From the NCBI RefSeq assembly GCF_036826855.1, contig NZ_CP104578.1, forward strand, positions 8,242,501 through 8,306,500: DNA of 64,000 nucleotides. The letters are read 5' to 3'. The stretch comes from Streptomyces sp. SJL17-4 (GTDB lineage: Bacteria > Actinomycetota > Actinomycetes > Streptomycetales > Streptomycetaceae). Below, piece by piece: positions 616-10,665 of the stretch; position 1 is the stretch's first letter; every line of letters starts with the position of its first letter. The notes under the pieces were generated by a model. It saw only the letters and a program-made list of their open reading frames with translations, was not told the DNA's origin and made no database searches. A program made the translations under genes and the position numbers.

Positions 616-1233
616 TCACAGGCGCGGGTCGTCGGTGGCGGGCGGCATCGGCCAGGGCTCCTGCGCTCGCGAGGGCGTGCTCGTCGGACTGGGCGCCCCC
701 ATCTCTCCGGGGGCCTCCCGGACCGGCGCGTCGGTCGGCGTCGGCGAGCCGGACCCGGTCGGACCTTCGGTGGCGTCCGAGGGCTGGACGCGACCGCGCC
801 AGGCACCGGTTTCGTGACCGTGGTCCTCGATGAAGCCCTTGAACCGCTTGAGGTCTCCCTTGACCCGCCTGTCCAGGATGCCGAGTGCGTCAGCCGCCTT
901 CTCGGCCATGCCCTCGGGTTCCATGTCCATGGCGAGACTCACCCGGGTGTGACCCTCGTCGAGCTCTTGGAAGGTGACGACGCCCTTCTGCTGCACCTCG
1001 CCGCCGACCGTGCGCCACGAGATGCGCTCGTCGGCAAGCTGATCGACGATCTCCGTGTCGAACTCGCGTCGGACGCCTGCGATCTTGGTCCGCCAGTGGC
1101 AGTGCCGGTCGTCGACCTGCGTGACGTCCTCGACGCCCTCCATGAAGCGCGGGAACTCCTCGAACTGCGTCCACTGGTTGTAGGCGTTCCGCAGGGGAAC
1201 GTCCACGTCGATCGTCTGCTTCACCATGCTCAT
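616..1233 (-). CDS. SRPBCC-family (START-like / polyketide cyclase-like) protein
   Basis: The 205-residue protein begins MSMVKQTIDVDVPLRNAYNQW, the usual first strand and helix of an SRPBCC fold. It continues with W-T-Q-F-E-E-F-P-R-F-M-E-G-V, a stretch typical of the cyclase/dehydrase branch. The fold occupies about residues 1-145. The tail (146-205) is rich in Pro, Ser and Thr and looks disordered. The start at 1233 was chosen because AGGAGG lies 7 bases upstream; a longer frame from 1329 has no site and no conserved residues. These proteins bind hydrophobic ligands, and many Streptomyces paralogues have no known substrate. The gene stands alone on the minus strand. Confidence 0.85.
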   Translation of the reverse strand: MSMVKQTIDVDVPLRNAYNQWTQFEEFPRFMEGVEDVTQVDDRHCHWRTKIAGVRREFDTEIVDQLADERISWRTVGGEVQQKGVVTFQELDEGHTRVSLAMDMEPEGMAEKAADALGILDRRVKGDLKRFKGFIEDHGHETGAWRGRVQPSDATEGPTGSGSPTPTDAPVREAPGEMGAPSPTSTPSRAQEPWPMPPATDDPRL

Positions 1234-1325: not shown

Positions 1326-1835
1326 TCACTCGGTCGGGTCGTCGGCTTCGGCAACTCCGTCGGGAAGTCGGCGGACGATCGTGAACAGGTGCCTCACACG
1401 GGCGTGTTCCAGCCCGTCGGCGTCACTCAGGCGCGCCGTGACTTCGTAGGTGCCGCAGTGGGTCCGCCCGAGGGGCAGGCGTTCCGGCGGCAGCCGGATC
1501 TCGTACGGGCCTCCGGTACGGAAGCTGCCGAGAGCGATCCGTCGGGTCACCGGGGCCTCACCCGCTCTGATCCTGATGGTTTCGAAGACGAGGCCGTCGG
1601 TGTCCGCCCCCAGCCGGAAGGTGAGGGCGGTGCTGACCACGGTGCCCTCCGGCAGTTCGTACGGGACCTCGGTACCCGGCCCGTCGAGGGGCACCGTGAA
1701 CGTACCCAGGTCGTCGGAGACGAGAGACAGCTCCATCAGCTCGACGGCCTCCGTGGCGGGTCTGCTCGCTTCCCCGTGGGACGGGGGAGGGAGGGAGGCG
1801 GGGGACGCGCGGGTGGCGGGCTGCATGGGGTTCAT
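1326..1835 (-). CDS. RhoGDI-like immunoglobulin-fold protein
   Basis: The 169-residue protein has a low-complexity N-terminus (about 1-30), then a domain that follows eukaryotic Rho GDP-dissociation inhibitors along its whole length. The shared landmarks are VELMELSLVSDD, LPEGTVVSTALTFRLGADT, then LGSFRTGGPYEIRLP, then GTYEVTARLSDADG and a final HLFTI strand. In human RhoGDI the matching positions read LTLVCSSAPG, LKEGVEYRIKISFRV, VGSYGPRAEEYEFLTP, RGSYSIKSRFTDDD and WNLTI (recalled, not searched). The ATG is preceded by GGGAG and overlaps the stop of the STAS-like gene (ATGA), so the two are translationally coupled. Function in bacteria is not established; binding an isoprenoid or another hydrophobic group is only inference. 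Confidence 0.7.
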   Translation of the reverse strand: MNPMQPATRASPASLPPPSHGEASRPATEAVELMELSLVSDDLGTFTVPLDGPGTEVPYELPEGTVVSTALTFRLGADTDGLVFETIRIRAGEAPVTRRIALGSFRTGGPYEIRLPPERLPLGRTHCGTYEVTARLSDADGLEHARVRHLFTIVRRLPDGVAEADDPTE

Positions 1836-2215
1836 CTCCCTGAGGTGGCTGCAAGGCCCTGCCGGGCCCGGCAGGGCCGGCGACCACGGCGCGTCGGGCG
1901 AACCCGAGGCGCGCGGTCCGGGACGACGGTGAACAGGCGCAGGGTGCCCGTCCGCAGGAACGGGTGGTGCAACTGGCGGGGGACCGGTCCGACGAGCAGC
2001 AGGTCGGGGTGGGAGAAGTGCGCGGAGAGCAGTTCGTGCAGGCAGGAGACGGTCGTCAGGCCGATCGCGCCGGTCAGTGTCAGGAGCACGGTGTCGGACC
2101 CGGACGTGACTTCCCGGACGGCACGAGCCCCGCCCTCCTGCGCCCGGTAGGGCGGAGGCGCGGTCGGGGGGCACGGCGTCATCATGACGCGGCGTCGGCG
2201 TCGCCGTCTGGTCAT
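1832..2215 (-). CDS. STAS-like (anti-sigma-factor antagonist-like) protein
   Basis: The 127-residue product has an Arg-rich start, then a segment (about 35-100) with the strand-helix rhythm of STAS domains: TVLLTLTGAIGL, an amphipathic helix CLHELLSAHF, a second strand, and LRLFTVVPD, which matches the LFEVVPD end common in anti-anti-sigma factors. The usual phosphorylatable Ser/Thr in a D-S-S/T-G loop is not visible, and the domain is short, so it may be non-signalling or decayed. The C-terminal 25 residues are basic and unstructured. The ATG at 2215 has GAGGGTGA upstream; ATGs at 2185 and 2182 are alternatives. It overlaps the RhoGDI-like gene by 4 bases. Confidence 0.5.
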   Translation of the reverse strand: MTRRRRRRRVMMTPCPPTAPPPYRAQEGGARAVREVTSGSDTVLLTLTGAIGLTTVSCLHELLSAHFSHPDLLLVGPVPRQLHHPFLRTGTLRLFTVVPDRAPRVRPTRRGRRPCRARQGLAATSGR

Positions 2216-2340
2216 GGCCGGTCACCCTCGTGCGAACGTTCGTGGACCTTCTTCGCACGGGCGGCTGCCCGCTTCTCGACCCGGCAATCGTCGGGGGCGC
2301 GGTTCTTTGCTTCCCCCTGCTCAGCCTCCTCCACATGTGC

Positions 2341-2840
2341 TCAGACCCCGCCGCCTCGTGGTGGCCTCGGTCCCGACCCTGATGGCCGGCCGCATTCTGC
2401 TCGGTGCCGCCGAGGGCCCGGCGGCCTCCATGTCGATGCACGCCCTCTACAAGTGGTTCCCACCGGAGCGCCGCGCCCTGCCCTCGGCACTCCAGATCGG
2501 CGGCGCGGCCCTGGGCACGCTGATCGCGGCACCCCTGGTCACCTGGCTGATCGCCCTGGCCTTCGGCATGGTCGCGGTCACCATCCCCCTCCACTACATG
2601 ACGACCGCAGAGGTCGTCCCTCCCGCCCAGCGTGGAGCCGTCTTCGGCATCGTCGCCGGCATCGGCACCCTCCCGGGCCTCGTGGCACCGTTCCTGACCG
2701 GCCACCTCATCGACACGGCCGACACCCCGGCCGCCGGCTGCACCACCGCCTTCCTCGTCGCCGGCGCGGTGATGCTCATGGCCGGCACCTGCGCCCTCAC
2801 GGCCATCCGCCCGGAGCAGGACGCACGACGACTGGGGCTC
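2341..2840 (+). pseudogene. MFS transporter relic with internal deletion
   Basis: The frame reads GRILLGAAEGPAASMSMHAL, the TM4 region of a major-facilitator transporter, then KWFPPERRALPSALQIGGAA and TM5. It then jumps straight to LHYMTTAEVVPPAQRG and a TM11-TM12 pair, as found at the end of such proteins. The N-terminal helices and the whole central part (TM6-TM10) are missing. No start codon with a ribosome site is present. A full-length relative would be about 430-450 residues; about 165 remain. This is a clear in-frame deletion relic. Confidence 0.75.
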
Positions 2841-2995
2841 GACGTCAGGCCCCAGCCCTGGCCGCGTCGCATCAGTGGTCACCGACCGGCCATGCACATT
2901 CCGATCAACCGATGGGCAGATCATGCCGACCTGGTGCCATTGCGGCGGAGGCTGTGCCACGAAATCCTTGACCCTATAAAAGCCGGGGGAGCGCG

Positions 2996-4006
2996 GTGAG
3001 GCGGGTGGTGGTCATGGTGCGGCCGGTGTGGTCAGGGGCCTTGACGTTCGGACTGGTGAGTCTTCCGGTCGGGCTCTACACGGCCACGGACAGTCACACC
3101 TTCCACTTCCATCAGTTGCAGCGCGGCACCTCGGACCGCGTCCGGAACAAGAGGGTGAACGAACGGACAGGTGAGGAGGTCGCCCTCGACGACATCGTCA
3201 AGGGATTCGACACCGGGGGCGAGTACGTACTCGTGGAGCCCGAGGAGCTGGCGGACGTCGCTCCCGGACGGTCCAAGGCGCTGGAGATCACCGGATTCGT
3301 CGAGCTCGACGAAATCGCCCCGATCTTCTTCGACAGGACGTACTACCTCGGTCCGCGCGGCAAGGACTACGGGAAGATCTACCACCTCCTCGCCCGGGTC
3401 CTGTCGGATGCGAACCGGGCCGGCATCGCGACGTTCGTGATGCGGCAGCGGGAGTACCTGGTCGCGGTGAAGGCCGAGGACGGGCTCCTGACCTGCCACA
3501 CGCTCCACTGGGCGGACGAGATACGCGATCCCCACGAGCAGCTCGACGACCTCCCCGGCCGCACCAAGGTCTCGCCCAAGGAGCGGCAGATGGCCGAGCA
3601 GCTCATCGAGGCCCTGGCGATCGGCTGGGACCCCGAGGACTACCACGACACCTTCCAGGAGAAGGTCGCCGCGCTGATCGAGGCGAAGCGGGCGGGGGAG
3701 ACCGTGGAGAAGGCCGAACCGGCCGCCGAGTCCACGAACGTCGTCGACCTCATGGAGGTCCTCCGTGCCAGCGTCGAGAACGCCGACGGCGCCGGGAAGG
3801 GCCGGGGCGGTCCCGGCCGCCGCGGCCGCCGCGCTTCCGGCAAGCCGGCCGGGGCGCGGTCACCGAAGGGCGGCGGCGCGGAGCGGCGGCCCGGCGACCT
3901 CCAGGAGCTGACCAAGGCCGAGCTGTACGACAGGGCGGCCGAGGCCAAGGTGCGGGGTCGCTCCACCATGACACGCGACGAACTCATCGAGGCCCTCGCG
4001 GCCTGA
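2996..4006 (+). CDS. ku: Ku protein (bacterial non-homologous end joining)
   Basis: This is a typical bacterial Ku: [20 protein letters not shown] at the N-terminus, then the beta-barrel ring that threads onto DNA ends (to about residue 255). Ku homodimers bind broken ends and recruit LigD. The tail is an Ala/Gly/Arg-rich basic linker (about 265-300) and then a small helical module, [19 protein letters not shown].., like a Rho-N/SAP domain. The extended basic C-terminus is common in Streptomyces Ku. The GTG at 2996 has GGGGGA five bases upstream; the ATG at 3014 is an alternative giving MVRPVWSG. No ligD is nearby. The PfpI gene follows after 29 bases. Confidence 0.95.
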
Positions 4007-4035: not shown

Positions 4036-4602
4036 GTGTCACTCGACGGCAAGAACGTACTCTTCCTCACGACGAACTACGGCACGGAGCAGGACGAGTT
4101 GATGAAGCCGGCTGCCGCCCTGCGCGACGCCGGCGCCCGCGTCACCATCGCGGCGAAGAAGGACGAGGCGGTCCAGACCCTCGTCTCGGACCGCAAGCCA
4201 GGCGCTCTCGTCCCGCAGGACACGACCCTCGCGAAGGCGACGGCGGACGAGTTCGCCGCGGTGGTCGTGCCCGGCGGCACCGTGAACGCCGACCGGTTGC
4301 GGACCGACACGGACGCACGCCGTCTGCTCGCGGCCTTCGCCGAGGCAGGCAAACCGATCGCCGCCATCTGCCACGGGCCCTGGATCCTCGTGGACAGCGG
4401 GCTGACCGGTGACCGCGAACTCACGTCGTACCCGTCGCTCCGCTCCGACCTCGAGAACGCGGGCGCCACATGGCTGGACCGGGAGGTCGTCGTGGACACC
4501 TCCGGGCGCCATCCCCTCATCACCTCCCGTCGGCCCGGGGACCTCGACGCCTTCGCTTCGGCGATCGTCGACGTCCTCGAGACCGGCGGACACCGCGGCT
4601 GA
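4036..4602 (+). CDS. DJ-1/PfpI-family (type 1 glutamine amidotransferase-like) protein
   Basis: The 188 residues form a flavodoxin-like DJ-1/PfpI fold. The nucleophile elbow is IAAICHGPW (Cys112), and the acidic partner is Glu18 in GTEQDE. Family members act as proteases, chaperones or deglycases for methylglyoxal damage; which activity applies cannot be read from sequence. The GTG start at 4036 has GGGAG seven bases upstream. It follows ku by 29 bases and may share its transcript. The convergent alcohol dehydrogenase ends about 55 bases away. Confidence 0.92.
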   Translation: MSLDGKNVLFLTTNYGTEQDELMKPAAALRDAGARVTIAAKKDEAVQTLVSDRKPGALVPQDTTLAKATADEFAAVVVPGGTVNADRLRTDTDARRLLAAFAEAGKPIAAICHGPWILVDSGLTGDRELTSYPSLRSDLENAGATWLDREVVVDTSGRHPLITSRRPGDLDAFASAIVDVLETGGHRG

Positions 4603-6252: not shown

Positions 6253-8034
6253 TCAGTCCACCCGAATCCCCAGGACACACGCGTCGTCCTCGTGGCCCGC
6301 GACGTCGGGATCGGCCAGCAACGCATCGATGAGCCCCTGCACCCCCTGCACCCCCTGCACCCCTTGCACCGCTTGCACCCCCTGCACCCCTTGCACCCCT
6401 TGCGGTTCCGGCGGAGCAGCGGACGCCACCGCCTGGGCCAGCCGGTCGATCCCCTGGGTCACGTCCTCACCGCGGCGCTCGACCATGCCGTCGGTGTAGA
6501 GCACCAGCAGATCGCCCGGTCGCAGCCGCGTCGACGCGGTCTCGTACGCATAACCCGGCAGGGCTCCGAGGAGCGGCCCGCGCTGCTCGGTCCCCAGCGG
6601 CTCGGCACGGCCTTCGCGCAGCAGAAGTGGTGCGGGATGCCCGGCGTCGGCCCAGTGCAGGACCTTGTCCTCGTCGAGGTGACCGACCACCACGGTGGCC
6701 GTCTGATCCGCCGGATCGCTGCACACCAGCTCGTTCAGCCAGGTCGTGATCTCGCCGGCGGAGGCGCCCGTCTGCGCCAGCCCCGCCAGCGCGTGCCGCT
6801 GCTGGGCCATCCGTGCGACGGCGTCCAGGCCGTGTCCCGACGCGTCGCCGATGGCGACGAGCACCCGGCCGTCCGGCAGCAGCCGGCACTTGTACCAGTC
6901 ACCGCCCACAGCGGCGTCGGGCTCGGCCGGCCGGTAGGAGGCGGCAACCGTCAGGCCGACCGCGGCCAACGCCTCGGAGTGCGTGGGCAGGATCGCCTCG
7001 CGCAACGTGTCCGCGATCCTCCGCTCCGCCTCCGTCTGCCGTCGCAGCTGATCCGACTCCCGCTCCGTCTCGGCCAGCCGCCGTCGGCTGCGGATCTGCG
7101 GGGTGAGGTCGCGGGCCACCAGGTTCAGCGCCCACGCCCTGCCGTCCGTCCCGGTGACCGGCCGCCCCAGCAGGTCGAGCGTCCGGAGCTCGCCGAGCAC
7201 AAGGAAACGGATCCGCGTCCAGGCGGGCTCCTCGCCCGCAAGCACCGAGCTGAGGAACTCCGCGAGCGCCGTCAGATCGTCCGGCAGCAGCGCGTCGCAC
7301 AACTGCTCCAGGGTCCACGGCATGCGCACATCGGCGTGGAAGATGCGACTGAGCCCCTCCGACCAGGTGACCTTCCCGGAGAGCAGATCCCAGTGTCCCC
7401 AGCCCATCGAGGCCACGAACTGCGCGTCGATGGTCAGCAGCTCAGCCTGGCTCTGTACGGGTTGCCACGTCGCCAGGATCTGTTCACCGCACCGGGCGGC
7501 GGAGTACAGCAGCGGCGCCCGGTGGATCCGGCCCAGCCGCTGCTCCGTGTAGTCCACGACCAGCCGGTCCAAGGGCTTTCCGGTGTCCACCACGTCCACC
7601 AGGGCGGCCAGCAGCCCCGAGTGCGCCGCGCCCGGCCGCGCCTCCAGGAACCGTTGGCCGACCTGGTGGTCCGGGGCCTCCAGCCATTCCGCCGACCGCA
7701 CGCGGTTGCCGGCCACGATGCGGAAGTCCAGGACGGCGCCCGTGTCGTCCTGGACCGGTTCGAGCAGTACGGCTGAGGCCGGGATCGCCGCGAGGACCGA
7801 GCAGACGCCGCTGCCGCCCGGCTCGTGGGTGCCGCACAAGCACGGTGAGGCCCCATCCGTCTCCGCGGACGGCGGGAGCACGGCCAGGGACTGCAACGGC
7901 GACGCCAGCTCCGTACCGCCCGATCCGTCGAGCGGGCGCTCCGCGTTCCGGCGCACCGCCGCACGCAGGGCGGTGATCTCTCGGCCGATCATGCCCTTGA
8001 GGGCGTCGACACTGTCGGGCAGGGGAAAGGTCAT
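6253..8034 (-). CDS. PP2C-type SpoIIE phosphatase with N-terminal sensor regions
   Basis: The 593-residue protein probably dephosphorylates an anti-sigma-factor antagonist. Residues about 1-350 look like two divergent PAS/GAF-type sensor domains (AAIPASAVLLEPVQDDTGAV and MGWGHWDLLSGKVTWSEGL). The SpoIIE/PP2C catalytic domain follows, with AVGGDWYKCRLLPDG, IGDASGHGLDA and LVLYTDGMVERRGED supplying metal-binding aspartates, and a closing HEDDACVLGI. A (Val-Gln-Gly)n tract of about 24 residues is inserted just before the last helix. No histidine-kinase-like domain is seen. GGAGG lies six bases before the ATG. It is one of two SpoIIE-type phosphatases in this window. Confidence 0.92.
   Translation of the reverse strand: MTFPLPDSVDALKGMIGREITALRAAVRRNAERPLDGSGGTELASPLQSLAVLPPSAETDGASPCLCGTHEPGGSGVCSVLAAIPASAVLLEPVQDDTGAVLDFRIVAGNRVRSAEWLEAPDHQVGQRFLEARPGAAHSGLLAALVDVVDTGKPLDRLVVDYTEQRLGRIHRAPLLYSAARCGEQILATWQPVQSQAELLTIDAQFVASMGWGHWDLLSGKVTWSEGLSRIFHADVRMPWTLEQLCDALLPDDLTALAEFLSSVLAGEEPAWTRIRFLVLGELRTLDLLGRPVTGTDGRAWALNLVARDLTPQIRSRRRLAETERESDQLRRQTEAERRIADTLREAILPTHSEALAAVGLTVAASYRPAEPDAAVGGDWYKCRLLPDGRVLVAIGDASGHGLDAVARMAQQRHALAGLAQTGASAGEITTWLNELVCSDPADQTATVVVGHLDEDKVLHWADAGHPAPLLLREGRAEPLGTEQRGPLLGALPGYAYETASTRLRPGDLLVLYTDGMVERRGEDVTQGIDRLAQAVASAAPPEPQGVQGVQGVQAVQGVQGVQGVQGLIDALLADPDVAGHEDDACVLGIRVD
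6334..6405. repeat. 9-bp tandem repeat, 8 units, inside the SpoIIE phosphatase gene
   Basis: Units of cccctgcac with C/T variation run eight times without a break. On the coding (minus) strand each unit encodes one Val-Gln-Gly triplet (one reads Val-Gln-Ala). The period is a multiple of three, so copy-number change would lengthen or shorten a protein loop without a frameshift. Confidence 0.95.
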
Positions 8035-8071: not shown

Positions 8072-8395
8072 TCAGTGACCGAGTGACTTCTTCAGTTCGG
8101 ACTTGTTCATCGACGAGCGTCCGTGGATGTTGCGCCGCTTCGCCTCCTCGTACAGCTGGTCGTACGTGGGGCCTTCCGAACCGCTCGAAGAACGCTGCCC
8201 GCCCCGCTTCGACGACGACTTGTCCTGGGTGGAGGACTTGCTCGCGGTCTTCGACTCGCCGGAACGCGCCCGCTCCTTGTTCACCGTCCGTGCGGCGATC
8301 TCCTTGGCACGCTTGGTGCTCTCTCCACGGTCCTCCGCGCTCTCCTTGATGTGTTCGTACTGTCGTTCCCGCTTCGGGCTCGATCCACGAGGCAT
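8072..8395 (-). CDS. Small basic protein with C-terminal Rho-N/SAP-like module
   Basis: The 107-residue, strongly charged protein starts MPRGSSPKRERQYEHIKES, a segment found in many short Streptomyces proteins often labelled plasmid stabilisation protein. A Ser/Lys-rich linker follows, then a helical module (YDQLYEEAKRRNIHGRSSMNK..LKKSLGH) resembling the Rho termination-factor N-terminal/SAP fold. A nucleic-acid-binding role is likely but unproven. The start at 8395 has AAAGGGAG upstream; the extension to 8509 is a basic non-conserved run. The C-terminal module resembles the one at the end of Ku in this window. Confidence 0.8.
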   Translation of the reverse strand: MPRGSSPKRERQYEHIKESAEDRGESTKRAKEIAARTVNKERARSGESKTASKSSTQDKSSSKRGGQRSSSGSEGPTYDQLYEEAKRRNIHGRSSMNKSELKKSLGH

Positions 8396-8553
8396 GACGA
8401 CTCCCTTTCGTCTCCGCCGGATGTGTGACGGTGGACGCGTGCGCGTGCGCGCACGGACACACGGTCGTACTCCGCCCTGCCGCTGCCCGCTCGGACGGAC
8501 ATCAATCACTCGACCCTGTCATCGGCCTCGCCCCTCGGCAGGTGGAGATGCTC

Positions 8554-8727: not shown

Positions 8728-9414
8728 ATGGCCCTCACGGTCCCTCCCACCGGGACGCTCCCCGGCGGCCTGGTCGCGCTCCCGAGCGTCTACCGGCCAC
8801 AGGAGGACACACGCCTGCTCGCCGAGGCACTCGCCCACGAAGAGCTCGGACCCCGCACGGACGTCCTGGAGATCGGCACCGGCACCGGGGCGCTGGCCCT
8901 GCACGCCGCACGCAGGGGCGCCGCGGTGACAGCGGTCGACGTCTCCTGGCCCGCGGTGGCGACAGCACGAGTGAACGCCCTGGTCCGCCGACTGCCCCTG
9001 CGCGTCCTGCACGGCGACTTCGCGACCCGCACGAAGGGGCGGCGGTTCGACCTGGTCGTGACGAACCCTCCCTACGTCCCGGCCCCCGGTGCCCGGCAGC
9101 CCTCGCGGGGCGCGGAGAGGGCCTGGGACGCGGGCCCCGACGGACGCCTGGTGATCGACCGGATCTGCGCGTCCGTGCCCGTTCTGCTGCGTCCGGGCGG
9201 TGTGCTGCTGATGGTGCACTCGGGCATGTGCGGAGCCGAGGCGACCGTGGGCCGGCTGACCCGCGCGGGTTTGACCGTCGACGTCACGGCGCGAGCCTCC
9301 GTCCCCTGGGGACCGGTGCTGCGTTCCCGACGGGCCTGGCTGGAGCGGCAAGGCCTGGCGAGCGAAGCCGAGCAATGGGAAGAGCTGGTGGTCATCCGTG
9401 CCCGGAACGCCTGA
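8728..9414 (+). CDS. HemK2/PrmC-like class I SAM-dependent methyltransferase
   Basis: The 228-residue enzyme has SAM-binding motif I VLEIGTGTGALALHAAR, acidic motif II AVDVSWPAV and the catalytic NPPY motif in DLVVTNPPYVPAP. NPPY is typical of methyltransferases acting on amide or exocyclic nitrogen, such as release-factor glutamine N5 methylation. The protein lacks the PrmC N-terminal helical domain, so it matches the short HemK2/Mtq2 type. GGAGG lies just ahead of the ATG. The next two genes overlap head to tail, making a three-gene operon with a CDGSH protein and an iron-containing enzyme, a grouping I have seen annotated in other Streptomyces. Confidence 0.9.
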   Translation: MALTVPPTGTLPGGLVALPSVYRPQEDTRLLAEALAHEELGPRTDVLEIGTGTGALALHAARRGAAVTAVDVSWPAVATARVNALVRRLPLRVLHGDFATRTKGRRFDLVVTNPPYVPAPGARQPSRGAERAWDAGPDGRLVIDRICASVPVLLRPGGVLLMVHSGMCGAEATVGRLTRAGLTVDVTARASVPWGPVLRSRRAWLERQGLASEAEQWEELVVIRARNA

Positions 9415-9643
9415 CGACACCCCGGGCCGGGCGCCCGCTCGCCGGGTCTCCCTGGACCCCCAGGGGCCGGTCCTCGTGGAGGGGCCCGTCGAGATCGTCC
9501 TGGACGACGGGACGATCGCCCGGTCCGACCGCTTCGCCGTCGCCCTCTGCACCTGCCGTCGCAGCCGTACCTACCCCTGGTGCGACACCAGCCACCGCCG
9601 CCGCGCGCGAGCCACCCCGCCGACCGAGGACAGGAAGCCGTGA
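9398..9643 (+). CDS. CDGSH-type iron-sulfur protein
   Basis: The 81-residue protein carries a single CDGSH (mitoNEET-type) motif in CTCRRSRTYPWCDTSH. Cys51, Cys53, Cys62 and His66 are positioned to bind a [2Fe-2S] cluster with 3Cys:1His coordination. The usual glycine after the aspartate is replaced by threonine (C-D-T-S-H). The GTG start overlaps the methyltransferase stop by 17 bases, and its own stop overlaps the next start (TGATG), so all three genes should be translated together. The role is unknown; redox or iron-cluster transfer is the usual suggestion for the family. Confidence 0.92.
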   Translation: MPGTPDDTPGRAPARRVSLDPQGPVLVEGPVEIVLDDGTIARSDRFAVALCTCRRSRTYPWCDTSHRRRARATPPTEDRKP

Positions 9644-10665
9644 TGCCCCCTCCCAGCCCGACGCCCCTCGCCGCCGCGCCCGCTCCCCGCCTCGCCGAGG
9701 GACGGGGAGAGCTGTCCCGGGCCGTGACGGAAGCCCTGCGGTCGGGCGGCACGCCGCAGTACGAGCCCGAGGCCGTGTCGAGCGCCGACGTGTGGGGCGA
9801 GGACCTCCAACTCGCCCTCTATCTGCTGTACGAACTGCACTACAAAGGCTTCGAGGGAGTCGACGACGCACAGGAATGGGACCCCGACCTGCTGCGGCTG
9901 CGCCGGGAGATGGAAGCCCGCTTCCTCGACGCCCTGCGCGGCGAGCTGCCCGGGGCGCCGCGGACGGTCGAGGAGGCCTTCGCACCGCTCCTGGTGGAGC
10001 CCGTGGACCTGTCCGGCAGCCTCAGCCACCACCTCGAAACCGACGGGAAGCTGTGGCAGCTGCGCGAGTACGCGGCCCTGCGCTCCCTGTACCACCTCAA
10101 GGAAGCCGACCCGCACGTCTGGGTGATCCCCCGTCTCAGCGGACGGGCGAAGGCCTCCATGGCCGCCATCGAGTACGACGAGTTCGGCGCCGGCCGCGCC
10201 GACCGCGTCCACGCCAGGCTCTTCGCGGACCTCATGGCCGACCTCGGCCTCGACCCCACCTACGGCCGGTACGTGGACCACGCGCCCGCGCCGCTCCTCG
10301 CGACGGTGAACCTGATGTCCCTCTTCGGGCTCCACCGCGCCCTGCGCGGCGCCCTCGTCGGCCATTTCGCGTGCGTCGAGATCACCTCGTCGCCCGGGTC
10401 CAGGCGCCTGGCCGGGGCGATGCGCCGGTGCGGGGCGGGGCCCGCCGCGGAACACTTCTACGCCGAGCACGTGGAGGCGGACGCGGTCCACGAACAGGTC
10501 GTGCGCCACGACGTGGTCGGCGGCCTGCTGGCCGACGAACCCGGCCTGGAGGCCGACATCGCCTTCGGCTCCGCCGCCACCGTCTTCCTGGAGGACCGGC
10601 TGGCCGACCACATCCGCGACGCGTGGGACCGGGGAGGCAGCGCGTTGCGCCGCCCGCTGGCGTAG
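9643..10665 (+). CDS. Iron-containing redox enzyme family protein (heme-oxygenase-like fold)
   Basis: The 340-residue alpha-helical protein has repeated Glu/His-rich helices suited to a di-iron site: YLLYELHYKGFEG, then FACVEITSSPGS, then AEHFYAEHVEADAVHEQ. It is of the kind annotated as iron-containing redox enzyme, a heme-oxygenase-like diiron oxidase superfamily. The substrate is unknown. The start at 9643 is fixed by the TGATG overlap with the CDGSH gene; an earlier ATG-like start at 9580 has no site. Its place behind a CDGSH iron-sulfur protein suggests that protein may deliver electrons or iron to it (inference). Confidence 0.85.
   Translation: MPPPSPTPLAAAPAPRLAEGRGELSRAVTEALRSGGTPQYEPEAVSSADVWGEDLQLALYLLYELHYKGFEGVDDAQEWDPDLLRLRREMEARFLDALRGELPGAPRTVEEAFAPLLVEPVDLSGSLSHHLETDGKLWQLREYAALRSLYHLKEADPHVWVIPRLSGRAKASMAAIEYDEFGAGRADRVHARLFADLMADLGLDPTYGRYVDHAPAPLLATVNLMSLFGLHRALRGALVGHFACVEITSSPGSRRLAGAMRRCGAGPAAEHFYAEHVEADAVHEQVVRHDVVGGLLADEPGLEADIAFGSAATVFLEDRLADHIRDAWDRGGSALRRPLA

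Follow-up and report, generated by a model that had tools for sequence, protein, structure and literature searches.

A RhoGDI-like gene in Streptomyces: probably an old eukaryotic fold in new bacterial use

How does a gene resembling eukaryotic Rho GDP-dissociation inhibitors (RhoGDIs) come to stand beside stress-response genes in Streptomyces, and what could its product do there? In the table of a 2016 review, bacteria are listed without GDI or prenyltransferases, and the review gives RhoGDI as lacking in Lokiarchaeum (PMC4917890). Among the matches listed in a search of open-licence papers, none described a bacterial RhoGDI family in its title or the start of its abstract. We analyzed a 64,000-nucleotide stretch of Streptomyces sp. 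SJL17-4 (the window) together with related loci, and conclude that the RhoGDI-like gene probably represents an old eukaryotic fold in new bacterial use. The features of the window that bear on this question are:

1326..1826, minus strand: RhoGDI-like gene (Pfam PF02115; AF2 model with PDB matches; start codon supported by alignment to two relatives)
1832..2215, minus strand: remnant of a decayed STAS gene, earlier read as a STAS-like ORF (no Pfam match; 74% and 68% identity to full STAS ORFs; deletion and shift in the DNA alignment)
616..1233, minus strand: SRPBCC (Polyketide_cyc) gene (Pfam PF03364, 3.6e-18), the gene that follows the RhoGDI-like one on this strand, 92 bases past its stop
4036..4602, plus strand: DJ-1/PfpI gene (Pfam PF01965 for its homologue at L088:6526-7089)
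6253..8034, minus strand: SpoIIE-type PP2C phosphatase gene (Pfam PF07228, 5.7e-38, at L042:14756-16534, window offset 8500)

The RhoGDI-like ORF on the minus strand has 169 codons, from a first ATG at position 1835 to a stop at 1326-1328. DNA alignment showed that the ATG of Met4 (position 1826) is the start common to the window and two loci of its own clade, L085 and L088. A GGGAG in the window lies nine bases 5' of this second ATG and directly abuts the first one. The gene most likely starts at Met4 and comprises 166 codons, whereas a start at the 1835 ATG would give 169.

The product matched the Pfam Rho_GDI family (PF02115) with an E-value of 9.1e-8, scoring 32.4 bits where the cut-off is 26.5. 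Residues 26-155 of the 169-residue reading align with profile positions 56-192 of 193. With E-values up to 10, the Pfam search of the protein returned no family besides PF02115, and an NCBIfam search gave no match. Against the PDB, the window sequence alone (E up to 10) found 24 chains, all of them RhoGDI1 or RhoGDI2 (best E 8.9e-4), and a family profile built from 27 sequences (the window and 26 relatives) found 25, of which 24 are RhoGDI (2.2e-23 to 7e-21) and the 25th is an adapter protein with an E-value of only 1.6. The AF2 model predicts an Ig-like C-terminal domain of RhoGDI type, preceded by low-confidence residues 1-30 without helix or strand. These data bear out the RhoGDI homology proposed by a sequence-only reading of this locus: Pfam and the family profile both support it, the predicted structure that the reading had suggested checking matches RhoGDI, and the motifs it had listed (EG, GSF, GTY and SDADG) are all found in the protein. 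The likeness was said to run from end to end, which holds for the C-terminal domain but not for the N-terminus, where the first 55 profile positions are left unmatched. We regard the window protein as homologous to the RhoGDI family with near certainty. Across the window clade (21 pairs), the RhoGDI-like domain had a dN/dS of 0.23-0.63, which places it under purifying selection, though not strong.

Human RhoGDI1 is described as having an acidic pincer of E109, D140, E163 and E164 and residues with switch-binding roles (PMC8622166), and a hydrophobic triad of L77, F102 and W194 has been described (PMC2362126). The N-terminal switch-binding arm is absent from the window protein, whose match begins at profile position 56 and whose residues 1-30 are helix-free, and all 27 PF02115 matches in the genus start at profile position 55 at the least. 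Among the sequences seen, the arm was present in that of genome G995; in the residue alignment, the sequences other than human and G995 were trimmed to the domain and are uninformative on arms. The window protein has V, V, E and R at pincer positions 109, 140, 163 and 164 and L, Y and H at triad positions 77, 102 and 194, leaving neither the acidic pincer nor the hydrophobic triad intact. Across the 58 aligned sequences of the family, position 164 is Arg in 54, Lys in three and His in one, so that E164 occurs in none; E163 is kept in 50, Glu at 109 occurs in 16 and Asp at 140 in one. Position 194 is His in 39 of the 58, Tyr in 10 and Trp in none, and the triad is partly kept, with Leu at 77 in 46 and Phe at 102 in 13. 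New fixed residues are R151, G153, G154 and Y156 (58/58) and P155 and E157 (57/58), of which Y156 and E157 are the human letters too, and the main branch carries the fixed motif R-x-GGPYE...LPPER. Because the protein has no arm and neither an intact triad nor an intact pincer, we do not class it as a RhoGDI in function.

The same sequence-only reading had joined the gene to the upstream STAS-like gene as a translationally coupled pair, and had suggested checking its conservation across Streptomyces. No Pfam match indicated an intact STAS domain in ORF 1832-2215, which shares 74% identity with the STAS ORF of L085 and 68% with that of L088; both of these loci hold full-length STAS genes (STAS_2, 1.3e-7 and 7.4e-6, that of L088 lying under the cut-off). 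Compared with them, the ORF has 90 bases (30 core codons) deleted from its core and 2 bases missing near its 3' end, which puts the terminal part out of frame, so the gene is indeed degenerate, as had been supposed. The dN/dS of the remaining part was 0.48 and 0.57 (window versus relatives), and this measure is therefore no proof that the remnant is dead. Elsewhere in the clade, inspection by eye showed STAS pieces in L086, L087 and L143 and nothing recognisable in L046. As for the overlap, the STAS TGA (1834-1832) does overlap the ATG at 1835, but the shared start is Met4 at 1826. Comparison within the clade led us to reject a conserved coupled pair: the window copy is decayed, the STAS stop in L085 and L088 lies 65 bases before the shared RhoGDI-like start, and the four other clade members show no intact STAS gene. 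One result goes against this rejection, namely that in L088 another in-frame ATG, 66 bases further up, overlaps the STAS stop (TGATG), so that some form of overlap may exist in that locus. On balance, the STAS/RhoGDI overlap in the window is an accident of gene decay.

A looser link to anti-sigma signalling can nevertheless be seen in other clades. In Streptomyces coelicolor, sigma B has a role in osmoprotection and is thought to be controlled by RsbA, RsbB and RsbV (PMC9739823). In the window, the neighbour models detected neither STAS nor SigB as an intact gene up to 8 kb from the RhoGDI-like gene. We compared 43 loci with 40 control stretches, taken about 90-310 kb away in 22 of these genomes. 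As the neighbour HMMs derive from the target loci, the comparison is biased towards the targets, and as some target stretches were shorter than the controls, it is also biased the other way. SigB-type sigma genes were found in 15/43 loci versus 0/40 controls, STAS in 14/43 versus 1/40, SRPBCC in 13/43 versus 1/40, PfpI in 12/43 versus 1/40, CBS in 11/43 versus 0/40, HAD in 7/43 versus 0/40, Usp in 6/43 versus 0/40 and HATPase in 18/43 versus 5/40, Fisher p values overstating the significance as the loci are related by descent. SpoIIE (20/43 versus 10/40) and HAMP-kinase genes (15/43 versus 6/40) were weakly enriched, and SDR genes, the negative control, were not (5/43 versus 5/40). Homologues of the window's SRPBCC and PfpI genes occurred at 17 and 13 of the 60 other target loci, respectively, each versus one of 40 controls.

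The 83 loci collected reduce to 61 distinct sequences. With the annotations of duplicate loci pooled for the targets, SigB or STAS lay within 8 kb in 22/61 loci versus 1/40 controls, and any of six stress families in 46/61 versus 3/40. When clustered at 60% identity, 6/15 clusters had SigB or STAS and 10/15 any of the six families; at 50% identity the counts were 2/5 and 4/5. None of the six families was found within 8 kb at 15 of the 61 loci, G211 and G833 included, and neither SigB nor STAS at 39. Among 18 basal sequences, the genes upstream on the other strand included HATPase in 14 (1.1-4.1 kb away), STAS in 12 (0.6-2.4 kb away) and HAMP-kinase in 14, and SigB-type genes (7) lay upstream on the same strand. 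Strand relations were counted in 55 loci, left from 67 with flanks of about 8-10 kb (some cut by contig ends) after 12 duplicates were dropped; of the 15 STAS cases, 13 had the gene on the strand opposite to the RhoGDI-like gene. At nine loci the RhoGDI-like gene had been missed by the gene caller and was placed by profile, displacing overlapping calls in seven. A SigB-type -10 motif upstream of the RhoGDI-like gene showed no excess (7/61 versus 61/655), a result that speaks against membership in a SigB regulon. The anti-sigma link thus stands for other clades, through the intact HATPase and STAS genes of the basal loci and the enrichment of SigB, but not as the coupled pair first proposed.

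These neighbours bring forward the nearest rival to a ligand-binder reading, namely that the protein is a regulator in SigB-type partner switching that binds STAS, HATPase or sigma proteins and sets sigma activity without any ligand. The enrichment of SigB and STAS, the HATPase and STAS genes upstream of the basal sequences and the invariance of R151, G153, G154 and Y156 in all 58 sequences argue for such a protein-protein role, but the window has merely a STAS remnant, SigB and STAS are both missing from the surrounding 8 kb at most loci (39/61), and STAS usually stands on the opposite strand. We consider this role unlikely.

Several other features of these loci were observed. In the window, a fragmentary MFS frame at 2337-2996 (plus strand; best Pfam stretch at model positions 83-149 of 347) looks broken, and a Ku gene follows at 2996-4006 (plus strand), whose product has a C-terminal Rho_N-like stretch just under the cut-off; Ku homologues lie near two other RhoGDI-like loci and in 0/40 controls. 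A pair encoding a CDGSH iron-binding protein and a haem-oxygenase-like enzyme occupies 9398-10662 (plus strand), whose homologues occur in the vicinity of 7 and 8 further RhoGDI-like loci, respectively, and in 0/40 controls. In L043/L092, the RhoGDI-like gene is closely followed on its own strand by STAS and HATPase genes, and a SigB-type gene stands on the other strand. Immediately past the RhoGDI-like gene of L117, at 8330-8430, there is a run of short direct repeats (unit like ACCGTGCTC). Near the full-length RhoGDI gene of G995 (L132, 425-3467) are a phosphoketolase gene and a ferritin-like gene, presumably Dps, and a phosphoketolase homologue is found near the RhoGDI gene of G833 too.

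Three eukaryote-like forms, the only ones met, bear on the origin of the gene. That of G995 scored 150.7 bits over Pfam positions 10-192 and matched residues 21-202 of human RhoGDI1 with an E-value of 2.9e-27. Its arm has 12/38 identities with the human protein over residues 21-58 and keeps human D42, D45, L48, K50, Y51, K52 and E53; the model places arm helices at 17-22 and 28-36 with low confidence, and the top Foldseek match of this model was RhoGDI from a RhoA complex (3.2e-16). The other two forms are those of G833, from another genus of the family (119.7 bits), and G211, one of the 36 genomes of the genus with a family-profile match (119.2 bits). The G833 assembly has an estimated contamination of 7%, and the gene occurs in one of four genomes of its genus. 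Eukaryotic contamination was considered and rejected, since the G995 assembly consists of a single contig and the third codon positions have a GC of 0.92 in its gene and of 0.83-0.92 in all three.

The distribution is narrow. Of 392 genomes in the genus, 26 had a PF02115 match at an E-value of 0.001, with 20 of these exceeding the cut-off; among 61 relatives there were three matches, two of which exceeded it. The family profile A1 matched in 36 of the 392, a scan that is circular for the 26 genomes that supplied its 27 sequences, and G125 among the 36 gave a weak match (7.3e-4). In the family, the profile found 11 of 249 genomes, in 2 of 17 genera, and in the Actinomycetota, by either profile, one of 396, which is the window's own genome by the family profile. 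No RhoGDI-like protein was found in the 14 control genomes through which other bacterial phyla were covered, and plasmids and phages gave no match to the window protein or to that of G995. A pattern scan of a named genome collection returned 40 loci, 39 labelled Streptomyces and one labelled Microtetraspora glauca, whose gene is identical to that of G100, a member of the window's genus.

In a tree of 61 bacterial sequences with human RhoGDI1 as the sole eukaryotic sequence, G211 (fork 99/73) and the G995-G833 pair (100/92) fall between the human sequence and the 58-sequence family, which sits on a branch of 1.24 (100/99); the program marked G211 as a long sequence, and the make-up of the human, G995 and G211 sequences as unusual. 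As one eukaryote cannot root the tree, the case for a transfer from a eukaryote rests on the distribution and the arm. The reverse course, an ancient family of bacteria from which eukaryotes obtained RhoGDI, would fit the diversity and long inner branches of the 58-sequence family and the slight sampling of other bacterial phyla (14 control genomes), but it is made very improbable by matches in 2 of the 17 family genera and in one of 396 genomes of the phylum, the window's own, and by the finding of just three eukaryote-like forms. We infer that the RhoGDI gene was very likely transferred from eukaryotes to bacteria, possibly more than once.

Does the protein still act on a GTPase? A PPTA model gave no match in 10 genomes; among 14 controls it gave a weak signal in two, and no eukaryote served as positive control. 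A Ras model gave one match in each of the 10 genomes, always inside an open frame of 665-1078 codons, which from its length we take to encode initiation factor IF-2. By these two models, the lipidated partner GTPase envisaged by the earlier reading seems unlikely. That the protein functions as a GDI on CvnD or some other GTPase of bacteria, with or without prenylation, would be in keeping with the fold and descent, with the arm kept in G995 and with the report that human GDI1 binds non-prenylated RAC1 just 2.5 to 4.6 times weaker (PMC8622166). Against this, the window protein is armless, the 10 genomes offer neither PPTA nor a Ras-model match outside the long frames, and pincer position 164 is Arg in 54 of the 58 sequences; in kinetic tests, human GDI1 with E163 and E164 changed to Lys showed no association with RAC proteins (PMC8622166), although E163 is mostly kept here. 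We therefore consider a bacterial GDI highly improbable, and there is in all likelihood no GDI action on a Rho GTPase. A mimic acting on eukaryotic Rho GTPases of predators or hosts, to which the eukaryote-type, arm-bearing G995 sequence might point, is hardly credible for a gene with stress genes as neighbours in a genus where every PF02115 match (27/27) begins after the arm.

We thus return to the reading of a ligand-binding protein of eukaryotic descent. An ancestor of the Streptomycetaceae would have acquired a eukaryotic RhoGDI gene, the full-length form of which may survive in G995, whereas the other forms seen would have come to stand without the switch-binding arm; the main branch would then have remodelled its loop and pocket, fixing R-x-GGPYE...LPPER. 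With no arm, and with neither a Rho GTPase nor a protein prenyltransferase found in the 10 genomes, the beta-sandwich could be a small protein of the cytosol that passively sequesters a hydrophobic ligand (a free isoprenoid or lipid) or a partner bearing a lipid, taking it up once free, as PrBP/delta is described to do without an arm (PMC5758567). The position of the gene beside stress-response genes suggests a role in stress. Taken whole, a eukaryote-derived, armless binder of a hydrophobic ligand or partner beside stress genes is a reading that we hold tentatively, at just short of even chances. That the protein is a ligand carrier in stress is a conceivable but somewhat less secure part of it; since W194 is found in none of the 58 sequences, the pocket may be closed or polar, which argues against ligand binding. 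A bolder proposal is doubtful, namely that Streptomyces domesticated a eukaryotic RhoGDI, of which a full-length intermediate survives, stripped it of its arm and rebuilt it to sense a ligand or bind a partner within general stress control of the SigB type.

If the preferred reading is true, the arm-bearing form, the armless eukaryote-like forms and the diverged armless branch make up a natural series in Streptomyces, which would show how a membrane-extraction factor can lose its GTPase yet keep its fold. Bacteria would then use a fold until now tied to eukaryotic membrane signalling, and the function of a RhoGDI sandwich without Rho would become directly testable in culturable bacteria.

Among known systems, the carbohydrate-binding domain of Wzt was not recovered by the family sequence profile, and there are 0 ABC transporters among 19 annotated neighbour proteins, in contrast to Wzt. 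Human RhoGDI1 and RhoGDI2 (PF02115) are the proteins to which the window protein is compared most directly. It differs from them in having no switch-binding arm, in the changes of E164 to Arg and W194 to His, and in a 150-157 loop that is one residue shorter and carries the GGPYE motif; moreover, the human proteins have a Rho GTPase partner, whereas none is known for the window protein. In its general type of beta-sandwich it resembles PDE6D (PrBP/delta) and UNC119, which bind prenyl or acyl groups, and PrBP/delta is likewise described as being without an arm (PMC5758567).
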